Positions 6,845 to 64,000 of a DNA stretch of 64,000 nucleotides are shown in pieces. The position numbers and the translations under genes are program-made. The notes beneath the pieces were generated by a model that had not been told where the DNA came from, did no database searches, and saw only the letters and a list, made by a program, of their open reading frames with translations. Positions within the stretch are counted from its first letter, which is position 1; each line of letters starts with the position of its first letter. The stretch covers positions 186,001 to 250,000 of the forward strand of contig NBIV01000076.1 of the NCBI GenBank assembly GCA_003194525.1, read 5' to 3'. The stretch comes from Gracilariopsis chorda. Lineage: Eukaryota; Rhodophyta; Florideophyceae; Gracilariales; Gracilariaceae.

Positions 6845-6849
6845 ACTGT

Positions 6850-8287: not shown

Positions 8288-8307
8288 GCAGAAGGTGTTG
8301 GAACGAG

Positions 8308-10868: not shown

Positions 10869-10876
10869 CAGATAAA

Positions 10877-25673: not shown

Positions 25674-25808
25674 GGCACCTCCAGAATTGTCTCCGTTAAA
25701 AAATTTGCCAGAGTTCCAGAATAATTTCCAATATACCACAAAGTTGAAAGTGAAAAACTGGTTGCAGGTTGTTGCTTTGCACCCACCGGGCCTAGTCGCA
25801 TGCAGCAA

Positions 25809-26600
25809 TTAAAAAAAAATTGCTGCAAGGCTTATATTTACCCGATGCAGTCGTGCGCAGCACAGGAACTCTCGACACACTCCTGTTGGATTATGACGGG
25901 CGGAGTGTGCCCAGCCGGTTTTCAAGCCGTTTGATGTTTAACCCGCGTCCGGTTGTAAGGATTGGTCTGCCTTTACTCACACACCGAAGTGTGCTTTCCG
26001 GCCCCAAGAGGTACGACACGGCGGCCGCCCCGGACCCTGCACAGCAAGCTGGTATTAGGTCCGGTAAACCCTCAGACTTCCTGATCGCCGTCAAACGACC
26101 AGTATACCACAGAGGAGCAGCTGACTTTTCCCAGATTCGTGGTACTTAGTGGGTTACTCTTGTGGCGACCTGCACACGAGCTCGGCCTTGCCTAGGTCCC
26201 AGGCCAGCAAACAGTGCCCAAAGTAGCAAAAGGTTACGACACTGCGCTATTGGCCAAGCCTGAATGGGATGCAAAAGAGTGGTTAGGGTCAGCAAGCGTG
26301 ATGCATTTGGCACTGCGCCAGTGCAGTATATACGTCTGTTGCAGGCAAGTCTGCAATGAAACTTCAGTATACACTGCACTGGCGCAGTGCAATTTGCCAC
26401 GTGTCAGAATGCACTGCACTGGCGCAGTACAATTTGCCACGTGTCGGAATGAACAGGCGGGGTTTTGCTGCTGAGTGGCTGGCACAACAATTTGATTGTA
26501 TTGCAAGCCATTCAGCAGCCATTGCACAGTCAACTTGCAGCAGCAGCAGCAAATTAACTGAACGCTTTGCTGCTGCTGCTGCTGCTGAAGTTTTTAAATG
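25809..26600 (-). other. Helitron B 5' leader with stem-loop and 40-bp repeats
   Basis: This noncoding leader is shared with copies A and C. It contains two tandem units of about 40 bp (about 26378-26450), each with TGCACTGGCGCAGTGCA-type palindromic words and TTTGCCACGTGTC. A long-range stem pairs about 26306-26330 (GGCACTGCGCCAGTGCAG) with about 26370-26393. Any promoter of the element should lie here. A CAG/CTG tract lies at 26560-26588. Confidence 0.6.
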
Positions 26601-26604
26601 GTAG

Positions 26605-26680
26605 GAAGGCGTTGCGCCAAATGGGCGATTTGGATGGGCAAACGGGGGCGTGCAAGAGGATTTTATGGCGCAACGCCTCC
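26605..26680. repeat. Terminal hairpin module, 5' side of Helitron B
   Basis: The arms GAAGGCGTTGCGCCA (26605-26619) and TGGCGCAACGCCTCC (26666-26680) pair with one mismatch. The loop matches those at 20060-20105 and 27053-27098. Confidence 0.8.
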
Positions 26681-26727
26681 ATTCAATCAAGAACACCCCC
26701 CTCATAGAGGAACAAATACTTATGATG

Positions 26728-27200
26728 GAGAGACAAGTGGAAACGGCCTTCGGCCGTGGGCGGCGCTGTGCGCCGCGTTGGTTTTGTAGCTTTGTGTATT
26801 TAGTAGCGTTCGGAGGCTCTCCGAGCACTTTGCTCGCTTGCGCTCGCAATAGCGCTCGTAGAACCACGGGGCGCCGCGGCGCCTAGGTGCCTAAATTGAC
26901 TGCAGTGCCAGCCAATGATGAGAAAGCGTGACACGTTGCTTTGTGTAACTGGGTGGCACTGCAGTCATTATGGGAGTGCCAGGCAGTAAGCAGGAAGCTT
27001 TGCTGCTGCTGCTGCTGCTGAATTTTTTAAATGGTAGGGAGGCGTTGCGCCAAATGGGCGATTTGGATGGGCAAACGGGGGCGTGGAAGAGGATTTTGTG
27101 GCGCAACGCCTCCATTCAATCAAGAACACCCCCCTCATAGAGGAACAAATACTTATGATGGAGAGACAAGAGGAAGCGGCCTTCGGCCGCGGGCGGCGCT
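26728..27200 (+). repeat. Short Helitron-associated element R2, with hairpin module
   Basis: It is a close direct repeat of R1 (19700-20222), lying between Helitrons B and C. It has GC-rich hairpins near 26743-26780, GACTGCAGTGCCA and TGGCACTGCAGTC inverted motifs (26898-26972), a CTG tract (27000-27020) and the perfect hairpin with arms 27038-27052 and 27099-27113. Confidence 0.85.
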
Positions 27201-27313
27201 GCACGCCGCAGTGGAGGATTGATAAACAGCGGTGAGGAAAAAAGAGGGTGGAGAAAGCAAAAGCAGAAAACCAAGTAGTTTAATTCAATGAAAGAAGAAT
27301 GCAAGAGATATGA

Positions 27314-28318
27314 TTACGGTTGTGGAGGGATGCAGAACTGAATGGGTTCAGGCAGCACTGGGTTGGCGATGGGAACAGGCATGGGATGAATTGTGTGCGC
27401 ATTCGAGGGTGTAAGCTGCGGATCATGCAGGAGCAGCACATGGTCGTTCCTTCGAACGCGCGACAATGCGACATACAACTGACCAGCGCAGAAGAAGTTG
27501 GATCGCACATCCACAACCAAGCCATCCAACGTCTTTCCCTGTCCTTTGTGAACGGTAGCTGCAAACGCGAGACGAATGGGAAACTGCCTTCGAATCATGC
27601 GAATATCTGCGAAAGAAAACTCGAAGTCGATACGATGCAGGAGCTGTCGTTCGAGCAGCTGTCTGTTCTCGTCGAATCGAGCCACCTGCATCGTAAATTG
27701 ATCGACAGGCACGACTACGAACAGCTTTCCGTTGACCACAGCGGGATGCAGCACGTTCCGAATGACCATAACTGGCACACCAATCTTCAAGTCCAAGTTA
27801 TGAGGCGGTACTCCAGTAGGCGCATACTGATATGCAAACTCGGGGAAGATAGAACTGGCAAAGTCAAACTCTGGGTTCTGTCCACGAACAGGTTGCACGG
27901 TTGTCGCTGACGGAAGAGTGAAGCGCTCACCAGGAAACAGATCTAGCGCTGCCGCATTATGTTCGTCGACCAACTGATTTGTGGAGGCAATGAGTATTTT
28001 GCTGAGATCCACATCCTCCTTGCGTCGTGTTGTGAGCCACTTCCACAGGAATTGGTAGGCGGTTTGCATGCCACCGGTAGATCTGAGTGGTAGTAGAGCG
28101 TTGTTGGATATTGTGTTTCGTGCAATGGAACGTAACAGCGACGCAAATGCCGGATCATCCGCTTGGCGTACTTGTTCCGTGAGGTACAGCACTTGAACTG
28201 AGCACAATGTCCACAGATCACTCTTCCTCGGCAATTCGTTGAGAATGTTTGTGTACACTCGTCTCACATTTCCACTTGGCTCGGCCTCCATGTACACCTG
28301 CGGCACCACTGGAAGCAG
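27314..28318 (-). pseudogene. Helitron C helicase, C-terminal fragment
   Basis: About 334 codons begin just inside motif III (LLPVVPQVYME) and run to the same C-terminus as copy B, with GQGKTLDG and GQLYVALSRV intact. Identity to B is high by eye. The Walker motifs are gone with the deletion. By chance the frame stays open across the deletion into the leader (to 28465), giving a chimeric frame with no ATG at its head. Confidence 0.88.
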
Positions 28319-28978
28319 TCCGGTTGTAAGGATTGGTCTGCCATTACTCACACACCGAAGTGTGCTTTCCGGCCCCAAGAGGTACGACACGGCGGCCGCC
28401 CCGGACCCTGCACAGCAAGCTGGTATTAGGTCCGGTAAACCCTCAGACTTCCTGATCGCCGTCAAACGACCAGTATACCACAGAGGAGCAGCTGACTTTT
28501 CCCAGATTCGTGGTACTTAGTGGGTTACTCTTGTGGCGACCTGCACACGAGCTCGGCCTTGCCTAGGTCCCAGGCCAGCAAACAGTGCCCAAAGTAGCAA
28601 AAGGTTACGACACTGCGCTATTGGCCAAGCCTGAATGGGATGCAAAAGAGTGGTTAGGGTCAGCAAGCGAGATGCATTTGGCACTGCGCCAGTGCAGTAT
28701 ATACGTCTGTTGCAGGCAAGTCTGCAATGAAACTTCAGTATACACTGCACTGGCGCAGTGCAATTTGCCACGTGTCGGAATGCACTGCACTGGCGCAGTG
28801 CAATTTGCCACGTGTCGGAATGAACAGGCGGGGTTTTGCTGCTGAGTGGCTGGCACAACAATTTGATTGTATTGCAAGTAATTCAGCAGCCATTGCACAG
28901 TCAACATGCAGCAGCAGCAGCAAATTAACTGAACGCTTTGCTGCTGCTGTTGCTGCTGCTTAATTTTTTTAATGGTGG

Positions 28979-29054
28979 GGAGGCGTTGCGCCAGATGGGC
29001 GATTTGCATGGGCAAATGGGGGCGTGCAAAGCGCATGTGTGGCGCAACGCCTCC
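28979..29054. repeat. Terminal hairpin module, 5' side of Helitron C
   Basis: The perfect arms GGAGGCGTTGCGCCA (28979-28993) and TGGCGCAACGCCTCC (29040-29054) form it. It is preceded by a CTG-rich tract, as at the B boundary. Confidence 0.8.
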
Positions 29055-29082
29055 CGTCAGTCAGCAACACCCCGCTCCTCTC

Positions 29083-29557
29083 ATCTCAACACCCCACTCT
29101 TAATGATTTACACATGTATGAGGGGGGTGTTGTTGATTGATAGGAGGCGGTGCGCCAATTAACCGCTCTGTATGCCCCTCTACGCGCATGCAAAACTGCC
29201 ATTTGGCGCAACGCCTCCCTACCATTTAAAAAATTCAGCAGCAGCAGCAGCAGCAAAGCTTCCTGCTTACTGGCTGGCACTCCCATAATGACTGCAGTGC
29301 CACCCAGTTACACAAAGCAACGTGTCACGCTTTCTCATCATTGGCTGGCACTGCAGTCAATTAAGGCACCTAGGCGCCGCGGCGCCCCGTGGTTCTACGA
29401 GCGCTATTGCGAGCGCAAGCGAGAAAAGTGCTCGGAGAGCCTCCGAACGCACCGAAATACACAAAGCTATAAAACCAACGCGGCGCGCAGCGCCGCCCAC
29501 GGTCGAAGGCCGTTTCCACTTGTACATGTGTAAATCATTAAGATTGGGGTGTTGAGA
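29083..29557. mobile_element. MITE-like element with terminal inverted repeats
   Basis: Terminal inverted repeats of about 35 bp (ATCTCAACACC...TTACACATGTA at 29083-29117, its complement at 29523-29557) enclose an inverted copy of the R short element. That copy includes a hairpin with arms 29143-29157 and 29204-29218, a CAG tract, the GCAGTGCCA motifs and the GC-rich block. No coding capacity is seen. Confidence 0.7.
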
Positions 29558-29639
29558 TATCATTTTAAGGGCCAACCCCCTCTCGCTGCTTCCAGCCCAG
29601 GGGTCTCTCGCTTTCAGTGCGGTGACCACCACGTGAACT

Positions 29640-30320
29640 CATTGCCCCGCTGATGGCAGCCGCGTGGCTGCAGACTCCACCAACACCCGCTTTCCCGTCG
29701 TCCCCCATGCTCACCTTGCGTCGAGACGCTCTCGTGCTTCAGGCCCGCCACGGCATCAGCTGCTTCATTGGCCGTGAACGCGCCAACAGCGCTGCGGCCA
29801 CGCCGCAAGTGTATTCTGTCGTTTCCTATAGGGACGGCGAGTTGTACGTACCAATCCGTTAACTAGAGATTCTCCGCACCCTTTCCATCAACGTCGCCGC
29901 AAAGTAAGGTCCAGTAAAGCGCGCTACTTTGCACCTCGCAGAGTGCGCGACCACATTTTTCGTCAGCTCGTCAACTTGCATACTTTGCATGCCTCTCATC
30001 ACCACGTCATACGAGACCCGTTTCCAGTCGATCAACACGCCGAGTGATTCTTTTTCGACGCCTGTCCATTCAGCCTCACCAACGACAACAAGTAGCCGCG
30101 CAGCAGGTGTTGAGTGATCTCAGTGACCTTCACATCCCAATGGACCCCATCTTGTGGGGTGATGTTGGCTTCAAAAAGACGGAGGTAGCCATTCGTGCCG
30201 CGTTTCGAGCCTTGAGAGCCGGTAAACAGGTGGTGGTTCTGGATCCTACTACCATCATGACATATCGGCATTATGAAACTTTCAAGCAGCGCTTCCTACC
30301 CTTTTACACGCAGTAACACA
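29640..30320 (+). pseudogene. mfd: Transcription-repair coupling factor (Mfd/TRCF) pseudogene
   Basis: Two stretches match the Mfd family. A CarD-like part (about 29740-29885) reads RHGISCF(I)G and YRDGELYVPI. A translocase part (30080-30300) reads [31 protein letters not shown] and HYETFKQRF. The Walker A glycine before KT has become Lys (GFKKTE). Stops after VPI and in the middle, plus frame changes, make it dead. Mfd displaces stalled RNA polymerase at DNA lesions, and in algae and plants a copy is nuclear-encoded for the plastid. This looks like a 5'-to-middle fragment only. Confidence 0.8.
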
Positions 30321-38442: not shown

Positions 38443-40473
38443 CTAGAATTCTCGCCATCTAGCCGTGCCATAGCTCCATGCAACTCGTCTGACGTTAATC
38501 CCATGCTCTAGCTTAACTTCCACTTGTTTAAGCATGGCGCACCTTGCCAGGAACCTTTCCGAGTTGATTTCCCTGGTCATGATTCGGAGTGAGCCATTCC
38601 TGTGAATTTTTGACGTTTGCAGTAGCCAAGGGAATAAATCGTGACAACTCAAAAGTCTGGTCATATACCTTCGAGGACCTATGAAAAACCGATCATTCAT
38701 TCCATAAAACGAGTGCCTTTTCCCTGAAGCGACTGCATTTTCCCACCACGAAGCGTTTAGTCTCTTCATAAACACAATATCCGGCCTAACTCGAGCTATA
38801 TAATCATACTTGCGACCTATCTGCCTTTCTCGATGGTTAATAAGAGATAGACAAGTACGCATATCCCACAACTGAAGCAAGTAGTTCTGAACCTGGTCAT
38901 CGGTGGAGAGCGTTCCGTGAAGCAGCTTTTTTGCCCTTGCTTCTCTTACGACGACCTTGAGCCAGTTCTTGTGAATTTTGGGTTTCGTTGAAAAACGAAT
39001 TGTAGTTGCATTGAACAGAAACGCAGACGAAGAGCGATCATCCATTGGAGTAACGACGAATACGTCAAAGAGAGGTATTGCACTGCGCAAAGTGGATATA
39101 ATGTTAAAGTGCGTGAAGGGCGCAGACCGCATTTGCCCGGTCAGGCACACTGCTGTTGATGGATACTCGTTGACCAGCGTTGGAACGTGTATCCTCGTTC
39201 GCGCTATTTCTAAGACAGGGAATTTTTTCAGAGAACTCACGGCTTCCTGCACAGAATCACGGCTCAAAATGTTATTGGTGGCCAAGTAATTGCATATGTA
39301 TTCAAACACTTTTGGTAGAGTGTGGATTTGTTTAGGTACTGTGAGGTTCCTCAAGTACAGAACGGTATTTTGTAGAAGCTCTTCCGTTGCCTGAATGATT
39401 TCACTCGTTTCTATCGAGTTTATGACGTCCAGGGAGGGATGCACAACCAGGAGGGAAGAGTCTGATTCCCATAGAACCCGCTGAACTATAAGCCCACCAA
39501 TTATGTCGTCATAGATTCTATCTGCTGTGTTACATTTTAGCAGCTGAGAGGCAAGCGCCCAAAATGCGTTTCTGTTGTACTGCACGGGTGACCTGGGAAG
39601 GGGGGCCAAGGCAGGAGCAAGGAAAGCAAGGGCTTTTGCTTTGTTGATTTCTGAGGTCTCATGCCCATGAACACCGCCTAAAGATTCTTCACGTTCCTCA
39701 TTCTCTTGAAATCGCGAGAAAAACGGGTGGCAATCGTAATTTGATGTAGGGAGGTGGTGAATGATGGGAAATGAGACGGTCGAGTTTATAGATGGAAGTG
39801 ACTCAAATGGGACCGGAGGATCTGGTTCATTGTTGAACATACTGAGAATTGGTATTCCACGAGTATAAATTCTTTTTCTGTGAAGAATAGATGCAGCATT
39901 CGTAAGGTACCTGGACTTCGGTGCAATCCGAATTTCGGCTGAAATGAGCTCGCTGAGCAGCAAAGAAGAGGAATTGCCGACAAGATTTTGAGAAACGTCC
40001 CCCTTTCCAACTCCGTACTTTGAGGTATAAAAGTATACGTCATCGTTGAGCAGTATGACAGTCATGGCATTTTCAAGAATAAAGCTGTAGTACTCGTGAC
40101 TGGTTCCCCAAGAAGTGAGGTGTATATGCCTAGCGATAGGGTCTTCCAGTTCATATTTGATTTCAAACAGCAGGCATACATCAAGCAGTTCTTGAGAGAA
40201 CTGTCTGAGGAACAGCTTGAGGCTATGTTCGGACTCTGATCTCCCGATGAGCCAGACAGGGGCTGCACATGATAGATAACTTGCTGGATTTGATCTGAAC
40301 TTGAATGAAGTGGCATGGTACATACATGCTATTGATGTGATTAGAAAGAGTAGGCAAAGAATCAAATGTTGGATGTATGTACTTGCAGACTTGCTGCAAG
40401 ACCGAACGCTGCGAACAGAACCTGGTTGCTGTCGCCACGGCATGATACGAGATGAACAAGCGGCTCCTCTCAT
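38443..40473 (-). CDS. Type II membrane glycosyltransferase-like protein
   Basis: An intronless 676-residue frame from ATG 40473. One N-terminal helix (IQHLILCLLFLITSIACMY, about residues 34-52) after a basic start predicts type II Golgi topology. A luminal domain begins AAPVWLIGRSES. The C-terminal domain (about 450-670) reads AVCLTGQMRS, then LQLWDMRTCLSLINHRE, YDYIARVRPDIVF and GMNDRFFIGPR. This resembles algal and plant DUF-type glycosyltransferases in which an R-x-D motif binds the nucleotide sugar. Substrate unknown; a role in cell-wall or N-glycan sugar transfer is inferred. Several N-x-S/T sites fit a luminal protein. Confidence 0.6.
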   Translation of the reverse strand: MRGAACSSRIMPWRQQPGSVRSVRSCSKSASTYIQHLILCLLFLITSIACMYHATSFKFRSNPASYLSCAAPVWLIGRSESEHSLKLFLRQFSQELLDVCLLFEIKYELEDPIARHIHLTSWGTSHEYYSFILENAMTVILLNDDVYFYTSKYGVGKGDVSQNLVGNSSSLLLSELISAEIRIAPKSRYLTNAASILHRKRIYTRGIPILSMFNNEPDPPVPFESLPSINSTVSFPIIHHLPTSNYDCHPFFSRFQENEEREESLGGVHGHETSEINKAKALAFLAPALAPLPRSPVQYNRNAFWALASQLLKCNTADRIYDDIIGGLIVQRVLWESDSSLLVVHPSLDVINSIETSEIIQATEELLQNTVLYLRNLTVPKQIHTLPKVFEYICNYLATNNILSRDSVQEAVSSLKKFPVLEIARTRIHVPTLVNEYPSTAVCLTGQMRSAPFTHFNIISTLRSAIPLFDVFVVTPMDDRSSSAFLFNATTIRFSTKPKIHKNWLKVVVREARAKKLLHGTLSTDDQVQNYLLQLWDMRTCLSLINHRERQIGRKYDYIARVRPDIVFMKRLNASWWENAVASGKRHSFYGMNDRFFIGPRRYMTRLLSCHDLFPWLLQTSKIHRNGSLRIMTREINSERFLARCAMLKQVEVKLEHGINVRRVAWSYGTARWREF

Positions 40474-51882: not shown

Positions 51883-53535
51883 ATGCCGCCCTCTATGCGG
51901 CTCATGTCCGCAAAGTTCAAAGTGCAGCATGAAGATCGACAGATCCAAAAAGTTCGCAGAGAAGCGGCACTAGAGCTGCTCAAGAAAGGCGTTTCTATCC
52001 GCCCAACATCAATGGAAACCAATGTATCGTCTTCAACAGTACAACGCCTTCGAACTGCACTACAAAGCAATAACCACATAACCCTACATAAGCTTTTGTA
52101 TCCAGGTACCCACCACGCTGGTAGACCGTTTGTTTTAACCATACCAGAACAATTGTTGGTTCTAAATCGCGCATTTGAAGCAACTCAGCGAGGAATCGCA
52201 ATGGATGTGAAGCAAATTAGAGTGGTTTTAGGAGGTATCACAAAAGATGGCCGTATAGGATACAAAAACGGGCTTCCAAGCGGTGATGCTTTGCGTCAAT
52301 TCAAAGCAAAAAAACAGACAGCTCACCCTTCGAAATGCGGAGAATAAAATGCAGGTTCGTTTAGCTGCACAATCTTACAGTGATGTACAATCGCTCAAAG
52401 AAATGTTAATGAAGCTCGACAGAAAACATCCAGGCCTTCTCTCCGATCCCAATCGCATTTGGAACTATGACGATACCAGTATCTTTCCTGAATTCGGAAA
52501 GCGCGTCAAGTGTTTCTCTCCTTCTGATAGTCGTAAGGGTGGCACCAGACTGTCAATGAAGGAAAATGGAAAGCATGTTACCGCAGGAATTGTCATCTCG
52601 GCTGCAGGAAACGTTGTTCTACTAGTACTGATAGCTTCAAGAAAGCGAAAAATGTCCCATTGGCTTGAACCACTGCATCGAGAATTCTTCGTTCATGATG
52701 ACGGTAGTCCAAATTGGCTCACGGATAAAAACTGGTGTCCTGGTGACACCTGTTTGTTAGTTAGCGAAAATGGGTCAGTCGATGGCATGAACATGCCTCA
52801 TATCGTTTCGCACATTAACAGGTTCATACGCACATTAATTTCTAAAGACGAACCTGTTCTTCTCCTTCTGGAAGGGCACAGTTCTCGTCAGACCGTAGAG
52901 TGGCTGGAGGTCTGTACAGAAATGAAAAAAGAAGTTATCAAACTCCCGGCATACACAACATGTTTTCTACAGCCTTGCGACAAAGCGGTTAACAAGCGCT
53001 TTCAGGAACGCATACGCAAAACTAGAGACTCTTTGATGAGACAGTGCCATATCTCCCATGCCAACGTTGCGCTTAAAATCAAGTTAGTTGTGGCAGGATT
53101 TCGTGCAGTCACAAACGCTGTTGCCCAGAAAGCTTTTGTTGAAGCGCGGCTTTGGCCGATGAACTACGGCTTTATGAAGCCGTTTACTGTACCAAAGGCC
53201 AGTGGAGTGGTCACAACTACACTGCAGAGTGGATGTCCAGTTGATTATGATACTTTTGATCTGGAAACTACGTCAGCGTTTCACAACAGGCGTGCGAGTC
53301 GCATGCTTGTTAATCAGATACACCGTATGACTTCACCTGGTTGTCGACCGTCATATGTCCTGGCGGAAACTGCACTGTTGATGCGCAACTCGTACGTAGT
53401 CAACCAGTTGTTGGGCAAAAGAATTGCCCCTCTTCCCAGCGCTTCTAAGTGTTCTGCTTCAAACAAGGTTATTTGTTTCGGGAATGTTGCAGAGCTACTG
53501 ACAGTTGATGAAATGCGGAGCAAATTGGGTCCAAT
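51883..53535 (+). pseudogene. pogo-like DDE transposase, N-terminal and catalytic part
   Basis: The first frame (51883-52347) carries a helix-turn-helix DNA-binding region. At a run of seven A (52308-52314) the homology moves to another frame, which then stays open to the Gypsy insertion. The catalytic core shows NYDDTSIF (first Asp, near 52470), LLLLEGHSS (about 52860, where the family normally has Asp-Gly-His-Ser and here has Glu) and LPAYTTCFLQPCDKAV (third Asp). The A-run slip, the Glu substitution and the Gypsy insertion inactivate it. Confidence 0.8.
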
Positions 53536-54341
53536 TGTAGTGCAACGCCCTCAGGGAGGGATTCTTGGTACTTGAACGCTTTCCCGATATTATCGGTTGT
53601 GTAGTGTGTATATGAACTACGCCCCACTATGGTGGATATGGACACGTGGGACACGGTTTTGGGTCAATTGGCGGTTGGCCACAGTAGTGGATGTTGCCAC
53701 GGAATGTGGAGTATTTTAGTTAATTTTGTTTATTATTTTCACACCCATTTTTGGGAAGCTAGTACTTAGTGCGACGGCGCACTGCCGTCGCACCAGTAAA
53801 CCTTCCCCAACAAGGGACCCCAACCTGGGGAATTGGCTCTGAGCTTTACTGCCTCCGCGTGTTCTCAACTCCTCCTTGGAGGGAAGCACCGTAGTGTACG
53901 GAAGTTCACCCCCCTTGCACATCTGAAGGAGACCCATCATTGGGAGTACTAATTGTTCCAAGTGTCTTGGTGTTTCGCCCTGTATAGGGTTATTGTTACC
54001 GGCATTGCCGTATCTGCTCGTCGCTCTCGCGACCCACTTGGTCTTTCCTCTTTCCCCTTTTTAGGGTAGCACCTCCCGCTATCCGCGGCCCTCGTGTGCG
54101 CATCCGCTCACACACCCCCACTTACGTGGAAACATACCTCTACTGAGGATCACACCCCGCTCACGCGGATACCGATTCTTCGCCTTCACCTCCCTGCGCG
54201 AGTCGCGACAGGTGTCCCTGGTCTTACAAACCGGCTTCGCCGTGACACCTCTGGGAGGGCTCTACCCAACTGGGTTCACCTCGTGAGAGGAAGATCCCGG
54301 ACGTCTTTCGGTGTTTTTCCCCTTTGGGGCATTGCACCACA
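53536..54341 (+). repeat. 5' LTR of Gypsy
   Basis: 806 bp, starting TGTAGTGC and ending CCACA. It contains a 10-bp perfect hairpin (GTGCGACGGC and GCCGTCGCAC, 53769-53793, 5-nt loop) and many smaller ones, such as GTCGC/GCGAC near 54023 and CCCC/GGGG near 54320. The 3' LTR repeats them. Confidence 0.96.
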
Positions 54342-54446
54342 AAGTGTTCTCCCGACCTAGAATCGGTTTTTGTTTTCCCTCTTACGAGGTTACTTTTTAG
54401 TTACCGGAAGTTCCGTGATCGTTTCCCGTCGTAACGGTATTTTCTC

Positions 54447-56623
54447 ATGTCGAGAAATCCCTCCGACGCGGAGCCAGTGGTTACGCGTAGTCGCTCCCGC
54501 GACAACGCGGACACTTCCGAAGTTCGGTTCGTACCCCGTATCCCCATACGGACAAGTTCCAGCCGTGCTGGCGCCGCTTCATCGCGGAATGATACCCCCG
54601 AACGGGAAGCCCGGAACCTCCTTTTGCCCTCGTTATCACCCCCGCAGGGGAATGCAGCATCGACTCCGGCTGTTGCCGCAGTGCCCCAGGCACCCCGGCC
54701 TGCTCCCGCTGTCGCGGCTTCAAGCCCCCGTGGAACGGGCGATAACACCCCCCAGGGGACTTCCCTGGAATCCCAGGTCCGCGCTCTGTGGACCGCCCAT
54801 GACACCCTTGTAGGGGAACTAAAATCCCTCCAAGAGGTGGTCTCGGCAACCCCCGTAAAGGAGGTCGCCGAGGAACTCCGTATTTTACGGTCTGACGTCA
54901 ACTCCGTGTTGGAGAGTTTGGGACAACCCGCCGCCTTCATCGAAGGAGTTGAAGCCCGATTTGATCGGATTGGTGCCCGCCTGGAGACGCTGGAGCAGTT
55001 CGTCCTCATGGACAAACCATCCCCGGGTGATCCGGTAAACGAGGCATCGCACAACGACCAGCTTGCTGGGAAGAAGAAACGCCGTCATCGACGGAAACAC
55101 CACCGGAAATATTCGGACTCCGATTCTTCGACATCGTCGGACTCATCCCGAAACCATTCGGTTAGCTCGAGCTCCTCGGGCTCCGACTCGGAGGACGAGA
55201 AGCGAGGCTACTCCTCCCGCTCGAAGCGGTCATCGGCCACTGAAGGTGTGGTCCGAACCCGCCAGAAGGGGAGAAGACACCCCGGTCTCCGGGAGTTGAA
55301 ACCGACAAACCCGGATTACCGGAAGCTTTTATCATACCGGTACTACCGGCTTGAAGATTCGTCACTTGGACGTACGCCCCGGGGTACGGGAAAGGTGCGA
55401 GAATGCATTAAGCGAATGCAGCTCTCGCTCCGCAACCAGTATTTTACTGGAGAGGACCCAGTCCTAGTACTGGATTTCCTATCCCGCTTTGTAGCGGAGG
55501 CCGATATCCTCGGTATGAATGAGGGACAAGCCTATTTGGCTTTACCGTATTTCTTACGGGGAGTGGCGGAGGACCAATACACCTCTGTCAGAGGATCTTT
55601 TCGCGCCTCTTAGGGAGGAGTTACTTGCTGGCCGGAGGCTGTGCAGTATCTTCTGCGCTCCTACGCCACCAACACCGCTATTCAGCAGGCTATCCTCGCT
55701 TTGCAAGATACACGCCAGCGTGCTGGAGAGACCGAGACCGATTACTCGGTGCGCCTTAACAAGGCTTTCCACAGATGTGGTAACGTATACCCCGCTGGGG
55801 AGCGCAGTACCATGTTCATTGATGGTCTTGACCCGGCAATCCGGAGTTTAGTTACCCGTTATCGGGAGGACAAGCGAAGGATCACCTACCTCGAGCTGGT
55901 CCAACACGCTCGAGCGGAAGGGGATGCACTTCGTGCAAGAACTCCGAACAATCAGTCTAAATCCGCCAAGGCTTCGTTGCTGGAAAGCGAAGCTTCCTCT
56001 CTCCCGCTCACCGCGGATGGGAACCCTGGACAGGGATTTGATACCGTGCATTTAGTGCAGGGGGATGGTGTGTCGATACCCACCAGTGAGTTACCGTCAA
56101 CGACGGAGATGACCCATGATACGGGAACAGAAGATCCCGTTCTATACGGTGGTAACAGTCGGGTTCAACCCCAACGACTCCCGTTTTCAAACGGTCAATC
56201 TCGTTATCAACGGCCTGGATGGACTGACACCCGCCCTGCGGTTCGCTTCTCCGATACTCGGAATAATAATCCGCGTGTCGCGGTGCTGGCTCTCATTTGC
56301 CACCTGTGTTATGCCCATGGCCATACCTCTCTCCTCAGTGTATTTGTTCATTGAAGGATATGGCCAAGGTGGTGGCAAATTATGAGGCCCTCAATCCAGA
56401 GGAGAAACGTTCCGTCCCGACGGCTTCCTACCTCCGTGCTAAAACGGACTTTTCTCACGCCCTACCACAGACCCCGCGGGCGCGGCAAGATTCATACACC
56501 CCGATTCGGGAGATCACGCAACCATCCGTTGCAACCCCTGCTTATGCGGATAGAAACCCCCGTCAACGGGATGAAGCACTCGTTGTCGAGGAAACCAACC
56601 CACTGCCGAAGGCGGAAAACTAA
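54447..56623 (+). pseudogene. gag: Gypsy Gag, one TAG and one frame change
   Basis: The ATG at 54447 opens a 388-codon frame: a Pro/Ala-rich N-terminus, a helical part, a Lys/His/Arg-rich then Ser/Asp-rich stretch (about residues 205-265), and the start of the retrotransposon Gag domain (YFTGEDPVLVLDFLSRF). A TAG at 55611-55613 interrupts it, and the same frame resumes with TNTAIQQAILAL and LNKAFHRCG. Near 56320 the zinc knuckle begins CHLCYAHGHTS, and its last Cys is reached only in another frame, which ends at TAA 56621. These are few defects for a 725-codon product. It packages element RNA. Confidence 0.8.
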
Positions 56624-56640
56624 CTGAGGGAGTCTCCCCT

Positions 56641-59600
56641 TTGGGAGAGGCGTCCTCAAGAACGAGGCTGTTGGCGCCCGAGGCGTCCTCGCCTCGCTCC
56701 CCGGTGAAAGTCTTCTCGAGGAAACACACCGCTGACGCGGACTCTGCGCACCTCGGTGTGTTGCGCCGCCCATGGATACGGAGTAAAAATCCCCGGATTC
56801 CCGGTAGAGTCTTGGTCTTGGCCAAGCGCAATTATAAGGTCTATGCCGACCTTGGTCTTGACCTCCAGTTTATGGTGAGGTTTCTCACCGTCCTGGATAC
56901 AGGTGCAGGCCCCAACTTCGTTGTGGAATCATTGTTACCCCCGCTCGTGCGGTCGCGTATCCGCTCTGACGCGGTCCCCGACATTTCGGATGCGAACAAC
57001 AATCCGTTACAAACGGTGGGCACAGTGGACCTCGTCGTGAGACTTGGTACCTCTGTGGTGAAGTTGGACTTCATCGTTTGCCGTTCATTGGCAGCACCAG
57101 TCATACTGGGATGTGATTACTGCGACAGATTTGTCGACGCAATCAGGCCCCGCCTCAGGCGTGTAGAACTTGAAGACGGATCGTCGGTTCCGATTGTTCG
57201 CCGCCCGCTAAAGCGGTCCTCTCGGAAACAAGTTCCGCTCCCTGCTGCGCAGGAACCAACACCCACGTACCGCGAGTCCACCAAGCTCCGCGTCGCTGCC
57301 TCGGTTTCTATACCGGCTGAGTCCCAAGTCTGGGTGCAGGTAAATTCCCGTCAACACGGTCTTCGGGTTATACAACCCCTCGCCTCGTTGTACGATAAAT
57401 CCCAGCTGGCGCTGGCTAATGGAATTGTCTCCATTTCCCCGGATGTCCCTTTCCGGATATTGGCTGCCAACCTTGGCAAACACCCCCAGTATCTGGTCAA
57501 ACACCAAGTAATTGGGAGTGTAACCCCCCATCCTATGGGAATGCTGCCAACAAAGATGACAGCCGCCGATGTACTCGGAGTTTCCACCTCTTCTGAGGAG
57601 TTCGCCCCGCCGTCCGAAGACATCAAGTCTAAGGAGGGGGAGGAAACCGCTACTTCAGCGCCGAACATACCGAGTAACTCGGAATTGCGAACCACACCTG
57701 TTCCACAGGACAATGCTCCATCGAGCAATGACCGGATTGATCCGAAAAAAGCACTTGAAGCGCTGGACTTCAGCCACGTGCCAGAGTCGCACCGCGACAA
57801 ACTCCGTACTATGTTACGGGAATTCACCACAATGTGGGATGCCTCGCTTGGCGAGATTGATGCAACGGAACACCGGATCGATTTAATCCCCGGTGCGCGA
57901 CCGGTTGCACAACCCCTTTACAGGGCAGGTCCGAAAGCTCGGGAAGAGGAGCATTCCCAGGTGGACAAGATGCTCCGCGCAGGTGTGATTGAGCCCGCTC
58001 AATCACCCTGGGCATCCCCAGTTGTACTGGCTTTAAAGGCCGACGGAACCTGGAGGTTCTGTGTCGACTACCGCCGGCTCAATGCCGTGACTGTTAGGGA
58101 CACGTACCCCATCCCTCGTCTGGACGAGTGCATTGACTCCCTTGGAGACGCCACCGTGTTCACGGCCCTTGATGCCAATTGGGGATATTGGCAAGTACCT
58201 GTCAGACAGGAGGATCGCGACAAAACCGCATTCACCTGCCATGCAGGAACGTACCGCTTCAAGCGGATGCCATTTGGGTTAACCAACGCCCCCGCCACCT
58301 TTCAGCGTGCAGTAGATATTCTACTCAACCGCTTTAAGTGGCGGAGTTGTCTGGTCTACCTTGATGATATTATCATCTTCTCCAACTCGTTGGACGACCA
58401 TCTCACTCACGTCCGAGACGTGCTCACCGTACTCCGCGATGCGGGAACTACCCTCAAGTTGAGGAAATGCGAGTTTTTCACAGATACTGTGAAGTATCTG
58501 GGTCACATTATCCGTCCTGGACGGTTAGCGATCGAGAAAGCTCGAGTCAAATCCCTCGTTGAGGCGAAAGAACCCCGTACTCAAACGGAACTGCGCTCCT
58601 TTCTGGGGCTGGTCAACGTCTATCGACGGTTTATCCCGAACTTTTCGGATACTGCAGCGCCCCTGAACGCGTTGTTGCGAAAGGGGAACCCCCCAAAACT
58701 GGGCACATTTACGCCCGAGCAATCGGAAGCTTTTAACTCCTTAAAGGAGGCTGTCACATCAGCACCAATCCTACATCTCCCAAACCTTGGGTTGCCATAC
58801 TCCGTAGATACGGACTCGAGCGACTACCAAGTCGGGTGTGCTCTTTTTCAAACCACCCCCGAGGGGGAACGAGATCCAATTGGTTATTGGTCACGTTCGC
58901 TCAATGTTCATGAGCGGAACTACTCCGTATCGGAGAAAGAGTGCCTCGCCGTCGTATGGGCGATGACCACTCTGCACCCCTACCTTATGGGAATTCACTT
59001 CACCGTGTACACGGATCATTCCTCATTGAGGTGGTTGATGAATATCTCCGACCCGTCGGGACGCCTCATGCGCTGGAGACTCCACCTCGCGGAATATGAC
59101 TTTCAAGTCATTTATAAAAAGGGTGCGCAGAACACCCAGGCCGACGCTTTATCGCGGTTACCCACAAGTGGGGAAGCACTCCCAACGGAGGATGATGAAG
59201 TCCCATGCTTCATGGCTATAGACCCGGATGATCCGGAATATGCCGTCGAGGCTAGGCCAGAAACCTGGGACGAGAATGCTGATTTTGACGAACTACTCGC
59301 ATCGCGAGATAAATCTGAGAACCCGTTAACGGGAAACTTTTTACCGGTATCACCGGAAGAAATGATCCGAGAACAATTCGGCGACCCATTCTGTACGATA
59401 ATTCGTGCCCGTATCAACGGTGGTGAAGATCTCCCTTTCGGGGTAAACGACAAAGGCTACCTCGTAAGAAAGGTCGAAGCCCGCCCACAGATTGTGGTAC
59501 CACATTCCCTGCAATCGCGGGTGTTACATCTATCACACTACGCCCCCATTGGAGGTCACCCAGGTGGGAGGAAACTCTACCTAACCCTGCGAAGGGATTT

Positions 59601-61518
59601 CTATTGGCCCGCAATGGCGGTGGATTGCTACGCAACTGTGCGGTTTTGTAGCGAATGCGCGAAGAATCGCGTCAAACTCCGCAAAAATGCGAAGAAGATG
59701 AAACTATTCCCCGCAAGGGAGCCGCTCGAGTTTATTGCAATCGATATTCTCGGACCATTACTCACCACGAAACGTGGAAACAAGTTTCTACTTGTCATTA
59801 CCGACCGCTTTTCTAAGCTGGTACGGACTGTCCCTCTTCGGAGGATAACCGCTCTCACGGTGGCCCAGGCTCTGGTGACACACTGGATTTTTGTCTACGG
59901 TCCCTCTGTAGAGGTGCTCTCTGACAACGGGAAGCAGTTCGTGAGCAAGTTCTTCCAGGATGTTTGTCGCATCCTGGATGTCAAGAACTTGTTCACGACT
60001 ACCTATCACCCCCAGTGTAATGGGCAAGTTGAACAGTTTAACCGGACGTTACTCGCGGCGTTACGTTCTTACGTCGCTGACCACCCAACGAATTGGGATC
60101 TCTACGCTGATGCGGTAACCTACGCGTACAATACGCAGGTACACCGGACTACCGGAGTTTCGCCATTCGAGTTAGTTCTATCTAGAACACCCCCGCCTGT
60201 GGCGCTGGAACCCCAAGCTACCTTGGACAATTTCCCATCTGTGGGTATCTACCGGCAGCAATGGAAGCAATGGCTTTCCAAGCTGGTCCCCGCTGCGCGG
60301 AAGTCTATGGCACGGGCCCAAGCCGCTTACAAGCTGGATTTTGATGCTCGCTTGCGAGGGAAACCATCCCCGATTCGGGCGAATAACTACGTCTTCATCA
60401 GGAAGGAGTACTACAACCCGGAACGGGAGAAGCGTCACAAACTCTCGCCTGTGGCGGATGGACCCTTCAAGGTGATCTCTGTTAACACCGACACTGTCGT
60501 GGTAGAGATGGGGGACACGCACGAACGGATTTCCCGTGATCGTGTTGTCCTTGCCACTCCTCCCTCGTCAGAGGTAGTCCTGGATCCAGGCAACCCCGTT
60601 TCTACGGACTCCGCTACACCGGAACAATCCGGGAGTACTAGACCTACGGTACTACCACACCCCAGCCGGGGACTCTCAGACCTACCGACTCTGTCGGACT
60701 CACCGGCTCAGCCGGGTAATTCGGGCCCCTCAGCGCCCGCCCCTACCACGTCTGCCCCACTGGCGCGCATCTATACCCGCCAGGCGGGGAATTTTATCCC
60801 TTATCCCGCCACTCCGTCTAAGGAGGGGGAGGAGAACACTCTTTTTCGAGGAACGATATCACCGTCGCAACGGGAAACACACCGTAACATACGGAACACT
60901 GACCGTGGAGCACGGAGTATGTCACGCGACACTAGTCCCCCGTTCTCGGGCAGTGCTGTGCAACAGGAACCAGACGCGCAGGCCCCGCAAAAGCGGCAAA
61001 TACACCGTTTGTCACGGGAAAACGAGAAGCCTCACTCCAATACCGCAGCAGCGGAAAGGCAATCGCTCGATGCCTCGAAGCCGCCGTTGGCGGAAGTCCC
61101 CGCGGAAGCGGTTCAATCAGGTCGATCAGACCCGCGCCCTGCGGAGAAGGGGCGCCCAGATACGCCGGCCTCACAGGGGAATACCCACACCCCTCTTGGG
61201 GAAAAAGGCGGCCAAGCTGCAGTCGAAGCTTTAAGCCCTGGCTCGCAAGCACCGGAAACGCCTCCCGTCGTTGACGGAATCAAAGCCCCCGCTACGGGGA
61301 ATAATTTGCGCCAACCCCCGCATCGCTGTGGCGAAGAACCGAGGAACTCGGGAATAACGCGCGCCATCGCCCGCCCAAAACCGGTCGTACCGGACGCTGC
61401 TCCTCCTCACGGAGATGGTGCACTGCGCTCAGCGGCAATTCCCCTAAAAAGGGTGTCATCGGCACCTGCCCGGCACCCCCCAAAGGGGAATTTTGACCAA
61501 AATACCGGTGTACCGTAG
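56641..61518 (+). CDS. pol: Gypsy Pol: protease, RT, RNase H, integrase
   Basis: 1625 uninterrupted codons. The frame is open upstream to 56575, so no ATG is needed and Pol is probably reached by frameshift from Gag. In order: aspartic protease VLDTGAG (about residue 84), RT with RFCVDYRRLN and the active site YLDD (573-576), RNase H with YSVDTDSSD and TDHSSLRWL, and integrase zinc region HLSHYAPIGGH...CSEC. The integrase catalytic residues are in AIDILGP, LSDNGKQF and NGQVEQFNR. A Pro/Ser/Thr-rich disordered tail follows from about residue 1310. All catalytic residues look intact. TAG at 61516 separates it from the chromodomain frame. Confidence 0.95.
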   Translation: MGEASSRTRLLAPEASSPRSPVKVFSRKHTADADSAHLGVLRRPWIRSKNPRIPGRVLVLAKRNYKVYADLGLDLQFMVRFLTVLDTGAGPNFVVESLLPPLVRSRIRSDAVPDISDANNNPLQTVGTVDLVVRLGTSVVKLDFIVCRSLAAPVILGCDYCDRFVDAIRPRLRRVELEDGSSVPIVRRPLKRSSRKQVPLPAAQEPTPTYRESTKLRVAASVSIPAESQVWVQVNSRQHGLRVIQPLASLYDKSQLALANGIVSISPDVPFRILAANLGKHPQYLVKHQVIGSVTPHPMGMLPTKMTAADVLGVSTSSEEFAPPSEDIKSKEGEETATSAPNIPSNSELRTTPVPQDNAPSSNDRIDPKKALEALDFSHVPESHRDKLRTMLREFTTMWDASLGEIDATEHRIDLIPGARPVAQPLYRAGPKAREEEHSQVDKMLRAGVIEPAQSPWASPVVLALKADGTWRFCVDYRRLNAVTVRDTYPIPRLDECIDSLGDATVFTALDANWGYWQVPVRQEDRDKTAFTCHAGTYRFKRMPFGLTNAPATFQRAVDILLNRFKWRSCLVYLDDIIIFSNSLDDHLTHVRDVLTVLRDAGTTLKLRKCEFFTDTVKYLGHIIRPGRLAIEKARVKSLVEAKEPRTQTELRSFLGLVNVYRRFIPNFSDTAAPLNALLRKGNPPKLGTFTPEQSEAFNSLKEAVTSAPILHLPNLGLPYSVDTDSSDYQVGCALFQTTPEGERDPIGYWSRSLNVHERNYSVSEKECLAVVWAMTTLHPYLMGIHFTVYTDHSSLRWLMNISDPSGRLMRWRLHLAEYDFQVIYKKGAQNTQADALSRLPTSGEALPTEDDEVPCFMAIDPDDPEYAVEARPETWDENADFDELLASRDKSENPLTGNFLPVSPEEMIREQFGDPFCTIIRARINGGEDLPFGVNDKGYLVRKVEARPQIVVPHSLQSRVLHLSHYAPIGGHPGGRKLYLTLRRDFYWPAMAVDCYATVRFCSECAKNRVKLRKNAKKMKLFPAREPLEFIAIDILGPLLTTKRGNKFLLVITDRFSKLVRTVPLRRITALTVAQALVTHWIFVYGPSVEVLSDNGKQFVSKFFQDVCRILDVKNLFTTTYHPQCNGQVEQFNRTLLAALRSYVADHPTNWDLYADAVTYAYNTQVHRTTGVSPFELVLSRTPPPVALEPQATLDNFPSVGIYRQQWKQWLSKLVPAARKSMARAQAAYKLDFDARLRGKPSPIRANNYVFIRKEYYNPEREKRHKLSPVADGPFKVISVNTDTVVVEMGDTHERISRDRVVLATPPSSEVVLDPGNPVSTDSATPEQSGSTRPTVLPHPSRGLSDLPTLSDSPAQPGNSGPSAPAPTTSAPLARIYTRQAGNFIPYPATPSKEGEENTLFRGTISPSQRETHRNIRNTDRGARSMSRDTSPPFSGSAVQQEPDAQAPQKRQIHRLSRENEKPHSNTAAAERQSLDASKPPLAEVPAEAVQSGRSDPRPAEKGRPDTPASQGNTHTPLGEKGGQAAVEALSPGSQAPETPPVVDGIKAPATGNNLRQPPHRCGEEPRNSGITRAIARPKPVVPDAAPPHGDGALRSAAIPLKRVSSAPARHPPKGNFDQNTGVP

Positions 61519-62202
61519 TTAGCCCCAGACAACCCGTCAGTAGCCGGGGACAACACGGCATCGCCGGAACGTATGGTGCATAGCGCTCGTGCGCCTGGCA
61601 GGGAGGCGGTTTGCCACCCAATCACCTTGTCGCACGGGACCCCCCAGGGGATTGTGGAAATGCCGATCCCGCAGGAGCGGTCATCTTCCCGCAAACTCGC
61701 GGTTCGTGAGCTCAACCGCGAAGGCGGAGCCCAAGTCCCCCGCCGACTGGCGGTTCGCCCGCAATACTGCGAAAGCGGAAATGAACCTGCCCCAATGGGG
61801 AATGACTTGCCGGTGAAAACCGTGGCACCACACACCCTCTTGAGGGATATCTTCCCGCATGAGCAGCGGCCGCCATCACATCGCACGGCATCGCTGGAGT
61901 TATCGCCGAACACCGTGCTAAGGGACATTATACCGCACAGCGGGCAGCCCCCGCAAGGAATTACAACCACCACCCGGCACGGCCGGCAGGTCTACGAACG
62001 AGAGTTCGTAGTAGACCGACTTGTCGGACACACCTGGGACCAGGATGGTATTCTACAATACCGCGTCCGCTGGTACGGGTATGACCCCAGTGGGGATACG
62101 TGGGAGCCAATCGAACACCTCCCACGGTCGCAGGTCGTGCGATACCACCGTCAAACGGGAACTGCAGCTCCAGCCACGCTGGTAAATGCCCAAGTTGGGT
62201 AA
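61519..62202 (+). CDS. Gypsy C-terminal chromodomain
   Basis: In the same frame as Pol after one TAG, this stretch of about 227 codons ends in a chromodomain (about 62005-62160). It reads EFVVDRLVGHTWD, then LQYRVRWYGYDPS and TWEPIEHLP, with the conserved Tyr and Trp residues that form the methyl-lysine cage. Chromodomains at the integrase end of Gypsy chromoviruses steer insertion to marked chromatin. Here it is far from integrase, beyond a Pro-rich tail of about 500 residues. An ATG at 61573 could give a separate product. Otherwise it needs readthrough of the TAG. Confidence 0.85.
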   Translation, partial: LAPDNPSVAGDNTASPERMVHSARAPGREAVCHPITLSHGTPQGIVEMPIPQERSSSRKLAVRELNREGGAQVPRRLAVRPQYCESGNEPAPMGNDLPVKTVAPHTLLRDIFPHEQRPPSHRTASLELSPNTVLRDIIPHSGQPPQGITTTTRHGRQVYEREFVVDRLVGHTWDQDGILQYRVRWYGYDPSGDTWEPIEHLPRSQVVRYHRQTGTAAPATLVNAQVG

Positions 62203-62458
62203 CGTTGCCGCGCGAACGGAGGGCGATAGGAAAGGATAACATGGCAAGGTCTGTCGAAGACAGGGAACTCAAATGAGAATCACCGTTAAAAACGTGAAAG
62301 TTTATTCAAGGGAGCAGCTAGCTCCCCACAACACTTTACTACAATAGCCGGCTATGCCAGGAAAGAAGAACCGGAGACGGCGTACGCGCTTTTATCACCC
62401 ATTTTCGTCTGGGAACCCTCCGCGTCCGCGGTCGTTTTCCCGTCTTAGGGGGGGGATA

Positions 62459-63264
62459 TGTAGTGCAACGCCCTCAGGGAGGGATTCTTGGTACTTGAAC
62501 GCTTTCCCGATATTATCGGTTGTGTAGTGTGTATATGAACTACGCCCCACTATGGTGGATATGGACACGTGGGACACGGTTTTGGGTCAATTGGCGGTTG
62601 GCCACAGTAGTGGATGTTGCCACGGAATGTGGAGTATTTTAGTTAATTTTGTTTATTATTTTCACACCCATTTCTGGGAAGCTAGTACTTAGTGCGACGG
62701 CGCACTGCCGTCGCACCAGTAAACCTTCCCCAACAAGGGACCCCAACCTGGGGAATTGGCTCTGAGCTTTACCGCCTCCGCGTGTTCTCAACTCCTCCTT
62801 GGAGGGAAGCACCGTAGTGTACGGAAGTTCACCCCCCTTGCACATCTAAAGGAGACCCATCATTGGGAGTACTAATTGTTCCAAGTGTCTTGGTGTTTCG
62901 CCCTGTATAGGGTTATTGTTACCGGCATTGCCGTATCTGCTCGTCGCTCTCGCGACCCACTTGGTCTTTCCTCTTTCCCCTTTTTAGGGTAGCACCTCCC
63001 GCTATCCGCGGCCCTCGTGTGCGCATCCGCTCACACACCCCCACTTACGTGGAAACATACCTCTACTGAGGATCACACCCCGCTCACGCGGATACCGATT
63101 CTTCGCCTTCACCTCCCTGCGCGAGTCGCGACAGGTGTCCCTGGTCTTACAAACCGGCTTCGCCGTGACACCTCTGGGAGGGCTCTACCCAACTGGGTTC
63201 ACCTCGTGAGAGGAAGATCCTGGACGTCTTTCGGTGTTTTTCCCCTTTGGGGCATTGCACCACA
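62459..63264 (+). repeat. 3' LTR of Gypsy
   Basis: 806 bp, nearly identical to 53536-54341. Four substitutions were counted by eye (for example Ttt/Tct near 62671 and CCC/CCT near 63221). It lies directly after the G-rich polypurine tract and is followed by CCAAT. Confidence 0.96.
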
Positions 63265-63269
63265 CCAAT

Positions 63270-63519
63270 GAAGGGTTTCAAAGCTACAAAGAACTCTTCG
63301 CCGGTAGTGAGTGGGCTTAGTGCGGTTCGGAGTACAGCGCAAAAGGAGAACGAGCTACGAAGTGGTCAGACGAAGATGGGAGGAAAAAAAGCAGCTCAAG
63401 CCATAGCATCTTGGATGACGTTCCAATCGCGCAGTGGCCCACATGTGCCAAGAAGTCTATCGGGCGTAGAACCGTTCTTGCAGCAGTTGACTGCAATCGA
63501 ACTGCAGCAGAAGCGTTAG
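63270..63519 (+). pseudogene. pogo-like transposase, C-terminal part beyond the Gypsy insertion
   Basis: If the Gypsy element and one target duplication are removed mentally, the transposase frame continues here for about 83 codons (KGFKATKNSS... to IELQQKR) and ends at TAG 63517-63519. The sequence is basic and Ser-rich, as expected for a transposase tail. This shows the insertion hit the coding region near its 3' end. Confidence 0.75.
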
Positions 63520-63712
63520 TGTAGCTTGCAGAGAGGCAGAGAGACCGAAACCCTGATTGAGACGCCGTACCAAATTGTGCCTTTTGTCGTAAAACGTGTT
63601 TTGTTGGTGCTGTTCTGATACAGCATGATCGTTGATTTTGGCCCTTTGAATATACATTCTGAGTCTCTCGTTATTTGTTCCAAATTGTGCCGACGAGAGG
63701 GATAACCTCGCC

Positions 63713-64000
63713 AAGCCCGCGATGTTGTTCTTCAAGTCCTTTCCTAAAACTTTGAAAAGCTCTGTGTAGTTCTAGATGTGTATCCAAAAGCACGTGCCAA
63801 GAACCCTGAAGTACCTTCTCATTTCAACAGTGTCACCTCCTGAACCTTTGCTAGTGCTTGAGAAAATTTCAGGCACACCACTGACACCACTAAAGCCGAT
63901 GCATTACGGGTTTGACGCACTCTGGTAGCATGTCTGACGAAGATAGTGTGAAAAATTGCTATCGCAGATGTGTCCATCTTGAAATTATAACCGTTCTAAG
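63713..64000. other. Right edge, unassigned
   Basis: Sequence beyond the right pogo-like inverted repeat. No gene, repeat or RNA recognised. Confidence 0.35.

Follow-up and report, generated by a model that had tools for sequence, protein, structure and literature searches.

Does a retrotransposon that is crowded with short perfect inverted repeats owe them to chance, to the way it is copied, or to something that reads them? The question is raised by an element at positions 53536-63264 of the window analyzed here, a 64,000-nucleotide (nt) stretch of the red alga Gracilariopsis chorda (G000:C76:186001-250000, with genome searches run over its 91.3-Mb assembly). The element is a Ty3/Gypsy retrotransposon with a chromodomain, an assignment that rests on its long terminal repeats (LTRs) and target-site duplication, the reverse transcriptase (RT)-RNase H-integrase order, and the chromodomain itself. 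A first-pass annotation of the window had described it as filled with small hairpins. Our computations yielded the excess of hairpins, their format, the limits of their occurrence among the loci at hand, the strictness of their pairing, some covariation, and, in one family, a lack of renewal by mutation.

The core signal, missed at the first pass, is a single format whose base is 5'-CC...GG-3'. Hairpins of the form CCNN-loop-NNGG (CC hairpins), 10-15 nt and mostly 11-13 nt long, occur at 21/kb in the element compared with 0.7/kb in window positions 1-53535 (39 in 53.5 kb). In binned counts, their density was 17-26/kb inside the element and 0-3/kb outside, with a step at the LTR edges. By part, it was 26/kb in the LTRs, 17.8/kb in the RT-integrase portion, and 3.9/kb in the 3' non-coding stretch; the segment 62200-62458, ahead of the polypurine run, is nearly devoid of CC hairpins, unlike other parts of the element. 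On the plus strand, the array (CCNN(N)-loop-(N)NNGG) comprises 206 non-overlapping hairpins over 53536-63264 and covers 2544 of 9729 nt. The individual hairpins singled out at the first pass were found where it had put them: GTGATTGAGC/GCTCAATCAC at 57985-58006, one at 58452-58464 (as CCTCA/TGAGG), TTCACAG/CTGTGAA at 58477-58493, which overlaps and is mutually exclusive with CAGATACT/AGTATCTG at 58481-58500 in the RT region, and, in the LTR, GTGCGACGGC/GCCGTCGCAC at 53769-53793. The estimate of about 20 hairpins in 58681-59280 was close to our count of 23 (stem of at least 4 base pairs (bp), loop 2-9, non-overlapping), 10 of which were of the CC type.

Chance or base composition as the cause was ruled out by dinucleotide-preserving and codon-preserving shuffles, and hairpin density exceeded both nulls. 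When perfect stems of at least 5 bp with loops of 3-8 nt were counted against dinucleotide shuffles, Pol contained 85 (22.9±5.8 expected), the gag region 41 (12.7±3.7), the 5' LTR 8 (3.5±2.4), and the control region 2001-12000 contained 55 (49.3±7.4). The excess was thus three- to four-fold in gag and pol, and most other regions were near expectation. The control 38443-40473 was mildly raised (18 vs. 10.0, z 2.1); the open reading frame (ORF) at 38446-40473 (676 residues, DUF7796) has, besides itself, one relative (66%) among the protein-database matches listed. The control at 24-30 kb was also raised (52 vs. 37.8, z 2.3; for stems of at least 6 bp, 25 vs. 9.1, z 6.8). Several of the extra 6-8 bp stems in 24000-30000 are identical and recur at 26310/28681, 26375/28746, and 26617/27050; they look like repeated units rather than the CC format. 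The pogo-like gene at 52283-53535 had 7 stems of at least 5 bp (5.9 expected) and 6 of at least 6 bp (1.6±1.0 expected), which are low counts.

Codon-preserving shuffles of Pol (56641-60562) gave 23.7±6.1 stems of 5 bp where 95 are present, and 3.1±2.0 CC stems of 5 bp where 35 are present (4.3±1.9 when the null also kept codon-junction dinucleotides). Non-CC stems of 5 bp were raised less (60 vs. about 21). For 4-bp CC hairpins, the observed and expected numbers were 76 and 11.2 in Pol, 31 and 4.4 in the first gag segment, 16 and 2.4 in the second, 30 and 8.2 in the pol tail, and 17 and 2.5 in the chromodomain segment. With these nulls exceeded, the earlier proposal that synonymous positions were shaped by pairing inside the coding sequence is borne out. 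The pattern is also specific to the element, as had been proposed: nine other window ORFs summed to 7 CC hairpins with 7.5 expected and showed no excess, two of the nine being somewhat high (pogo-like, 3 vs. 1.0; 38443-40473, 2 vs. 0.4). Rfam models gave no match at the gathering score in 53000-64000.

The rules of the format were computed over the window element together with two related families, B (L011, with L019 at 93%) and C (L035), to which the related loci with frames longer than 1.9 kb belong; the two families and that of the window are about 61-66% identical to each other in nucleotide sequence. Where CC and GG ends lay 11-13 nt from each other, Watson-Crick pairing at both inner positions was seen 213 times vs. 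29.3 expected (7.3-fold), and GG...CC-based stems were near background (1.4-1.7-fold). Enrichment was maximal at a total length of 11-14 nt and had vanished by 18-19 nt; the loop is mostly 3-5 nt, with a sharp floor at 3. Pair 4 uses every Watson-Crick type (A-T 45, C-G 67, G-C 54, T-A 47 of 282), and therefore it is complementarity, not sequence, that is required there. CC...GG spans with one G·U pair were observed/expected at 12/11.7 and 9/7.7 for the inner pairs and 11/14.8 and 8/14.2 for the outer pairs. The fraction with complementary inner pairs was 0.40 for the 5' base CC, 0.29 for CT, and 0.24 for TC over a baseline of 0.07, with TT (0.14) not above several mixed bases; the stem base thus prefers 5'-YY...RR-3'. 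A search for motifs in the loops and flanks of CC hairpins gave none, an A following GG being ruled out as a flank motif because other GGs are followed by A equally often. Regular spacing was not found among the 206 hairpins (coefficient of variation 0.70 vs. 0.74±0.05 for random placement). The sharp minimum at loop 3, together with the use of all inner pairs, suggests a role for a strand that physically folds.

Folding energies were compared with codon shuffles in 60-nt segments. In Pol, z was -7.0/-7.5 for plus/minus RNA and -11.9/-11.5 for DNA; in families B and C it ranged from -3.2 to -7.4, and in four control ORFs it lay between -2.0 and +2.9. For plus-strand RNA, families B and C gave -3.2 and -3.8 beside the -7.0 of Pol, and the four controls lay between -0.7 and 1.3. 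In each of the three families tested, energy lay below that of the codon shuffles. The first-pass idea that dense RNA folding as such is favored was not supported in detail. A-U/A-U stems, with a predicted RNA energy of -1.2 kcal, were enriched 5.3-fold, and stems with one G·U beside G-C had mean RNA energies of -2.2 to -2.6 kcal, yet were enriched 1.4-fold, as were GG...CC stems. The weak G·U and strong A-U/A-U enrichment rules out plain RNA stability as the sole cause. DNA folding parameters fit the hairpins better than RNA ones.

The pattern, which the first-pass annotation had proposed to look for in related Gypsy families, extends to them. In the same genome, all 33 related loci (at least 63% identity, frame longer than 700 nt) had 4.3-12.3-fold more CC hairpins than expected, these loci belonging to families B and C and not being independent. 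The frames of L016, L039, and L048 were too short for this count; L016 was dropped, and L039 and L048, counted on protein-guided alignments, proved to be two further CC-rich lineages (18 vs. 3.7±2.0 and 18 vs. 5.2±2.3). Five lineages in the genome, that of the window included, share the excess. The genome also has four more distant Gypsy loci (29-38% identity), in which no CC hairpin occurs where 3.0 are expected. A host-wide process was ruled out, the excess being absent from these loci and from other window ORFs.

Relatives elsewhere were sought in genome contigs with alignment A1, built from 19 of the 120 listed protein matches; the search gave 14 relatives, of which 12 were analyzed, a first-order Markov model serving as the null. 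Two of the 14, L091 and L092, were excluded as short matches, and L082 and L085 have identical RT stretches from one metagenome-assembled genome (MAG). A single-protein query gave none, and none was confirmed among the viral contigs searched. The contig of one relative, L088 (JALZUP010000409.1), is catalogued under a bacterial MAG (Robiginitomaculum sp.) but is probably eukaryotic contamination; it serves well as an outgroup. Its Gypsy element is 70% identical over 132 RT residues and has an open 768-residue frame upstream of pol. This element had 53 stems of at least 5 bp (23.6 expected) and, at loop 3, 27 (6.0 expected), and wobble was low (G·U 1.24-fold and A·C 1.29-fold vs. 2.77-fold for perfect stems). 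In the 11 other MAG-contig Gypsies, 4-bp hairpins of all kinds were at 0.71-1.29 times expectation and CC hairpins summed to 19 vs. 22.2 expected. The six hairpin-rich rows grouped together as one clade (support 96/96) in a tree built from 138 RT columns, in which 10 of 17 inner forks were left open.

Hairpins at the same aligned place in different families were counted against a null in which synonymous codons were shuffled; this supersedes a cruder shift-null comparison (of 59 window hairpins, 12 recurred in place in L011 and 6 in L035). Same-place hairpins numbered 8 in L039, 7 in L048, 8 in L011, and 3 in L035, with 0.7, 0.9, 0.9, and 0.5 expected. Two-sided pair changes were present in 6 of these 26, at four different window hairpins. 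At 58254-58266 (plus strand), three pair states occupy one aligned place, C-G, T-A, and A-T (CCGCTtcaAGCGG in the window, CCGTTtcaAACGG in L039, CCGATtcaATCGG in L011). A non-coding pair change is seen at 53889-53901 (plus strand), where the window has CCGTAgtgTACGG and an 89%-identical LTR piece in L003 has CCGTGaacCACGG. Four-fold sites in stems differed less than other sites in L011 (36/65 vs. 130/189) and L035 (41/66 vs. 139/188), that is, in only two of four family comparisons, and therefore most hairpins turn over. The compensatory substitutions asked about at the first pass thus occur between families at some places, with turnover at most others.

A further comparison was provided by L053 (G000:C76, about 258145-262145), a recombinant that follows the window family to about 59.1 kb (window coordinates) and, past about 59300, a 24%-diverged lineage. 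The second part matches at least 40 places at 99-100%, itself included, and is therefore a very young subfamily. Gained hairpins in this part numbered 11, where a protein-preserving null gave 3.8±1.8 and reached 11 as its maximum in 300 draws; 10 were kept (8.8±0.5 under the null). Four-fold sites differed at 9 of 29 positions in stems and at 64 of 124 outside (Fisher P 0.06); when sites were classed by the other copy's hairpins, the counts were 12/32 and 64/123.

Variants among copies of the window family (L053 excluded; for singleton and shared counts, the window copy, L049, excluded as well) cover one family and recent changes, many of them probably post-insertion. Together, the 344 variants created 3 hairpins, where about 4.8 would arise by chance. 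Singletons (246) gave 3 gains and 38 losses (3.1 and 39.7 expected) and hit stems as often as other positions (36/604 vs. 192/3038); shared variants (98) gave no gains and 10 losses (1.7 and 16.2 expected). Counted per hairpin, there were 83 common hairpins, 6 low-frequency gains, each private to one copy, and 62 broken alleles, of which 12 were shared by copies; shared gains numbered zero (P 0.0005 against equal rates). In the window family, ordinary mutation costs the array about ten hairpins for each one gained, and no renewal is seen. Since new mutations erode the array and yet it stands at strength, something must restore it in the long term. Breakage at the random rate without creation favors selection over a copying artefact, and on our reading this selection acts in active lineages that are long-lived.

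What might this be? A clade of chromodomain Gypsy elements may have filled its LTRs and coding regions with about 20 stem-loops/kb (the density in the window copy); their format is degenerate, with an exact Watson-Crick stem of 4-5 bp, a loop of mostly 3-5 nt, and a base that is preferably 5'-CC...GG-3'. Weak selection would act on many interchangeable hairpins and hold their density while individual positions come and go, some sites lasting through compensatory substitutions. The hairpins could be scattered sites for binding or condensation on the single-stranded form of the element, as genomic RNA and/or first-strand complementary DNA (cDNA) in the particle. Their reader would be a nucleic-acid-binding protein that the element itself encodes, with the nucleocapsid part of Gag as the likeliest candidate. 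We lean towards such dispersed sites for the element's own protein, with confidence that stops somewhat short of even; selection as the keeper, the protein as the reader, the step at which it acts, and the benefit are all what we infer. The lack of wobble, the near strand symmetry, and the DNA-like energies point to single-stranded DNA, or else to a protein that accepts exact pairs only, and the CC/GG base preference, missing in L088, argues for a reader whose sequence preference differs between lineages. A bolder version, which may well prove wrong, is that about 200 strict mini-hairpins form a second, degenerate code over the whole retrotransposon genome, read as DNA or RNA by the element's own protein, with a reading rule (based on CC/GG in this host, indifferent to CC in L088) that co-evolves between lineages.

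Several observations weigh against dispersed protein-binding sites. L088 has no CC preference (3 CC stems of at least 5 bp vs. 2.7 expected), and the format is thus not fixed in the clade. On the branch of the window copy, 44 changes included 2 gains (0.5±0.8 expected) and 5 losses (7.7 expected), a result that could be compatible with selection or a copying process alike. In the 89%-identical LTR piece, stems and other sites changed at an equal rate (10/116 and 24/255), and four-fold sites in stems were not slower in L039 (49/81 vs. 146/247) or L048 (48/77 vs. 128/210). The hairpins have no loop or flank motif and are randomly spaced, whereas packaging signals are described with a shared recognition motif (PMC6281560). 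The lack of G·U is also unusual for an RNA signal.

Template switching by RT is the strongest rival, followed by bare cDNA hairpins. In the former, short template switches or quasi-palindrome correction would write the inverted repeats, selection on protein would only trim them, and CC/GG would be the microhomology where synthesis returns. Pairing that is strictly Watson-Crick and almost free of wobble on both strands, the preference for the smallest loops (27 with loop 3 vs. 6.0 in L088), the missing loop and flank motifs, and the clade-limited occurrence are as such a process would leave them, and template switching is described as able to make perfect hairpins and compensatory changes (PMC8794818). 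The quasi-palindrome correction raised at the first pass fits the strict pairing in this way; it fits poorly with the recent variants of the window family, where gains are at the random level, low-frequency gains are private, and shared broken alleles stand to shared gains at 12:0 although an equilibrium predicts a match. At least three gains in L053 (59541, 60063, 60196) moreover differ in both arms, rather than one arm having been copied. We regard a copying origin as unlikely, if still a serious contender. If selection saw hairpins of the first-strand cDNA at the DNA level, through shielding from nucleases or deaminases or through compaction, no specific reader would be needed. The stronger z-scores for DNA than for RNA in Pol point this way, as do minus-strand DNA being strongest in B and C (-7.4 vs. 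-4.2; -6.4 vs. -4.2) and a mild enrichment of minus-strand G·T mismatches (93 vs. 59.3, four classes summed) with none of plus-strand G·U (40 vs. 48.4). However, once overlaps with true hairpins were removed, CC..AG alone of the two outer minus-strand classes remained high (16/87; CC..GA 9/127; baseline 0.07), the asymmetry is absent from L088 (A·C 1.29, G·U 1.24), and the preference for CC...GG over GG...CC is left unexplained. We find bare cDNA hairpins distinctly improbable.

Two other accounts fare worse. Densely structured RNA that evades host silencing or controls translation or splicing would agree with the low folding energy in all three families, but energy as such is not favored, and no excess is seen where equal defenses apply, in the window's other transposon ORFs or in the host's distant Gypsy loci; we give it little credence. 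Palindromes that serve integration or a protein binding double-stranded DNA would suit the strand symmetry and the CC/GG ends, and LTR retrotransposons often target palindromes, according to PMC6911290. The use of all four inner pairs where complementarity is required, of odd and even lengths alike, and the sharp floor at loop 3, as in a folded strand, make this the account we find hardest to credit.

Genome-scale ordered RNA structure in RNA viruses consists of pervasive local pairing in coding sequence, in which G·U is tolerated. The array resembles it in that coding sequence is paired beyond codon-preserving shuffles, and differs in being strictly Watson-Crick with G·U not tolerated, in not following from RNA energy, in its CC/GG anchor and near strand symmetry, and in lying in a retroelement, LTRs included. 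With dispersed packaging signals (MS2 and others; PMC6281560), it shares many degenerate, interchangeable, coding-compatible stem-loops; it differs in that no shared loop motif was found, its recognizable part being the stem base, and in numbering 206 in the window copy. The array is assigned to neither class, because the wobble test failed for the one and no loop motif was found for the other. Template-switch hairpins (PMC8794818) likewise have exact inverted repeats and compensatory pairs, but the array shows no excess of hairpin-creating changes among recent copies in one family and has a CC/GG base preference. The RNA genome of Ty3, a member of the same superfamily whose RNA is used in translation and reverse transcription, has a well-folded core and short 5'-end palindromes for dimerization, and a genome-wide array is not mentioned in the abstract that describes it (PMC11381356). 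Among the matches listed from the open-access literature, no retroelement array of this kind was described.

The element lies between two copies of the target-site duplication CCAAT, read from the letters at 53531-53535 and 63265-63269, and its insertion point is the end of the pogo-like DDE ORF (DDE_1 match in 52283-53572). All of its parts lie on the plus strand. The 5' LTR (53536-54341, 806 bp, ends TG...CA) carries 21 CC hairpins and the 10-bp hairpin at 53769-53793. The gag region (54447-56354) consists of two open segments in one frame (54447-55610 and 55641-56351); it gave no Pfam match, and its label rests on position and size. There are 51 CC hairpins in 54447-56640. The stop codon at 55611-55613 is a sense codon in all three other copies that cover the site, and looks like a lesion of the window copy. 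The pol frame (56641-61515) encodes RT (PF00078), RNase H (PF17917/PF17919), integrase (PF17921, PF00665), and a long tail, with 70 CC hairpins in 56641-60562; the 1625 intact codons reported for it at the first pass hold as an open frame, with gag of the same copy interrupted. A TAG at 61516-61518 stands between the pol frame and the in-frame chromodomain segment (PF00385, 61573-62199); a search for other copies covering this TAG gave none. The stretch 60563-62199 holds 40 CC hairpins. A 3' non-coding stretch with the polypurine run (62200-62458, one CC hairpin only) precedes the 3' LTR (62459-63264, 21 CC hairpins), which is 99.5% identical to the 5' LTR (4 differences in 806). The LTR was found at at least 40 places in the assembly at 96-100% identity, the window's own two included, and pol at at least 40 places at 99-100%, the window copy included. 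Named protein-database matches were one from the red alga Agarophyton chilense (P0077, 54% over 76%) and a few from animals and plants.

The array is a strong, clade-limited signal that base pairing shapes the whole sequence of a retroelement, by rules (no wobble, a CC/GG base, DNA-like energetics) that ordinary selection for RNA structure does not predict. Codon-level null models for hairpin-rich Gypsy elements must allow for it. Two questions become testable on natural material, namely, whether LTR retrotransposons have dispersed packaging signals and whether reverse transcriptases are able to write hairpins into genomes.

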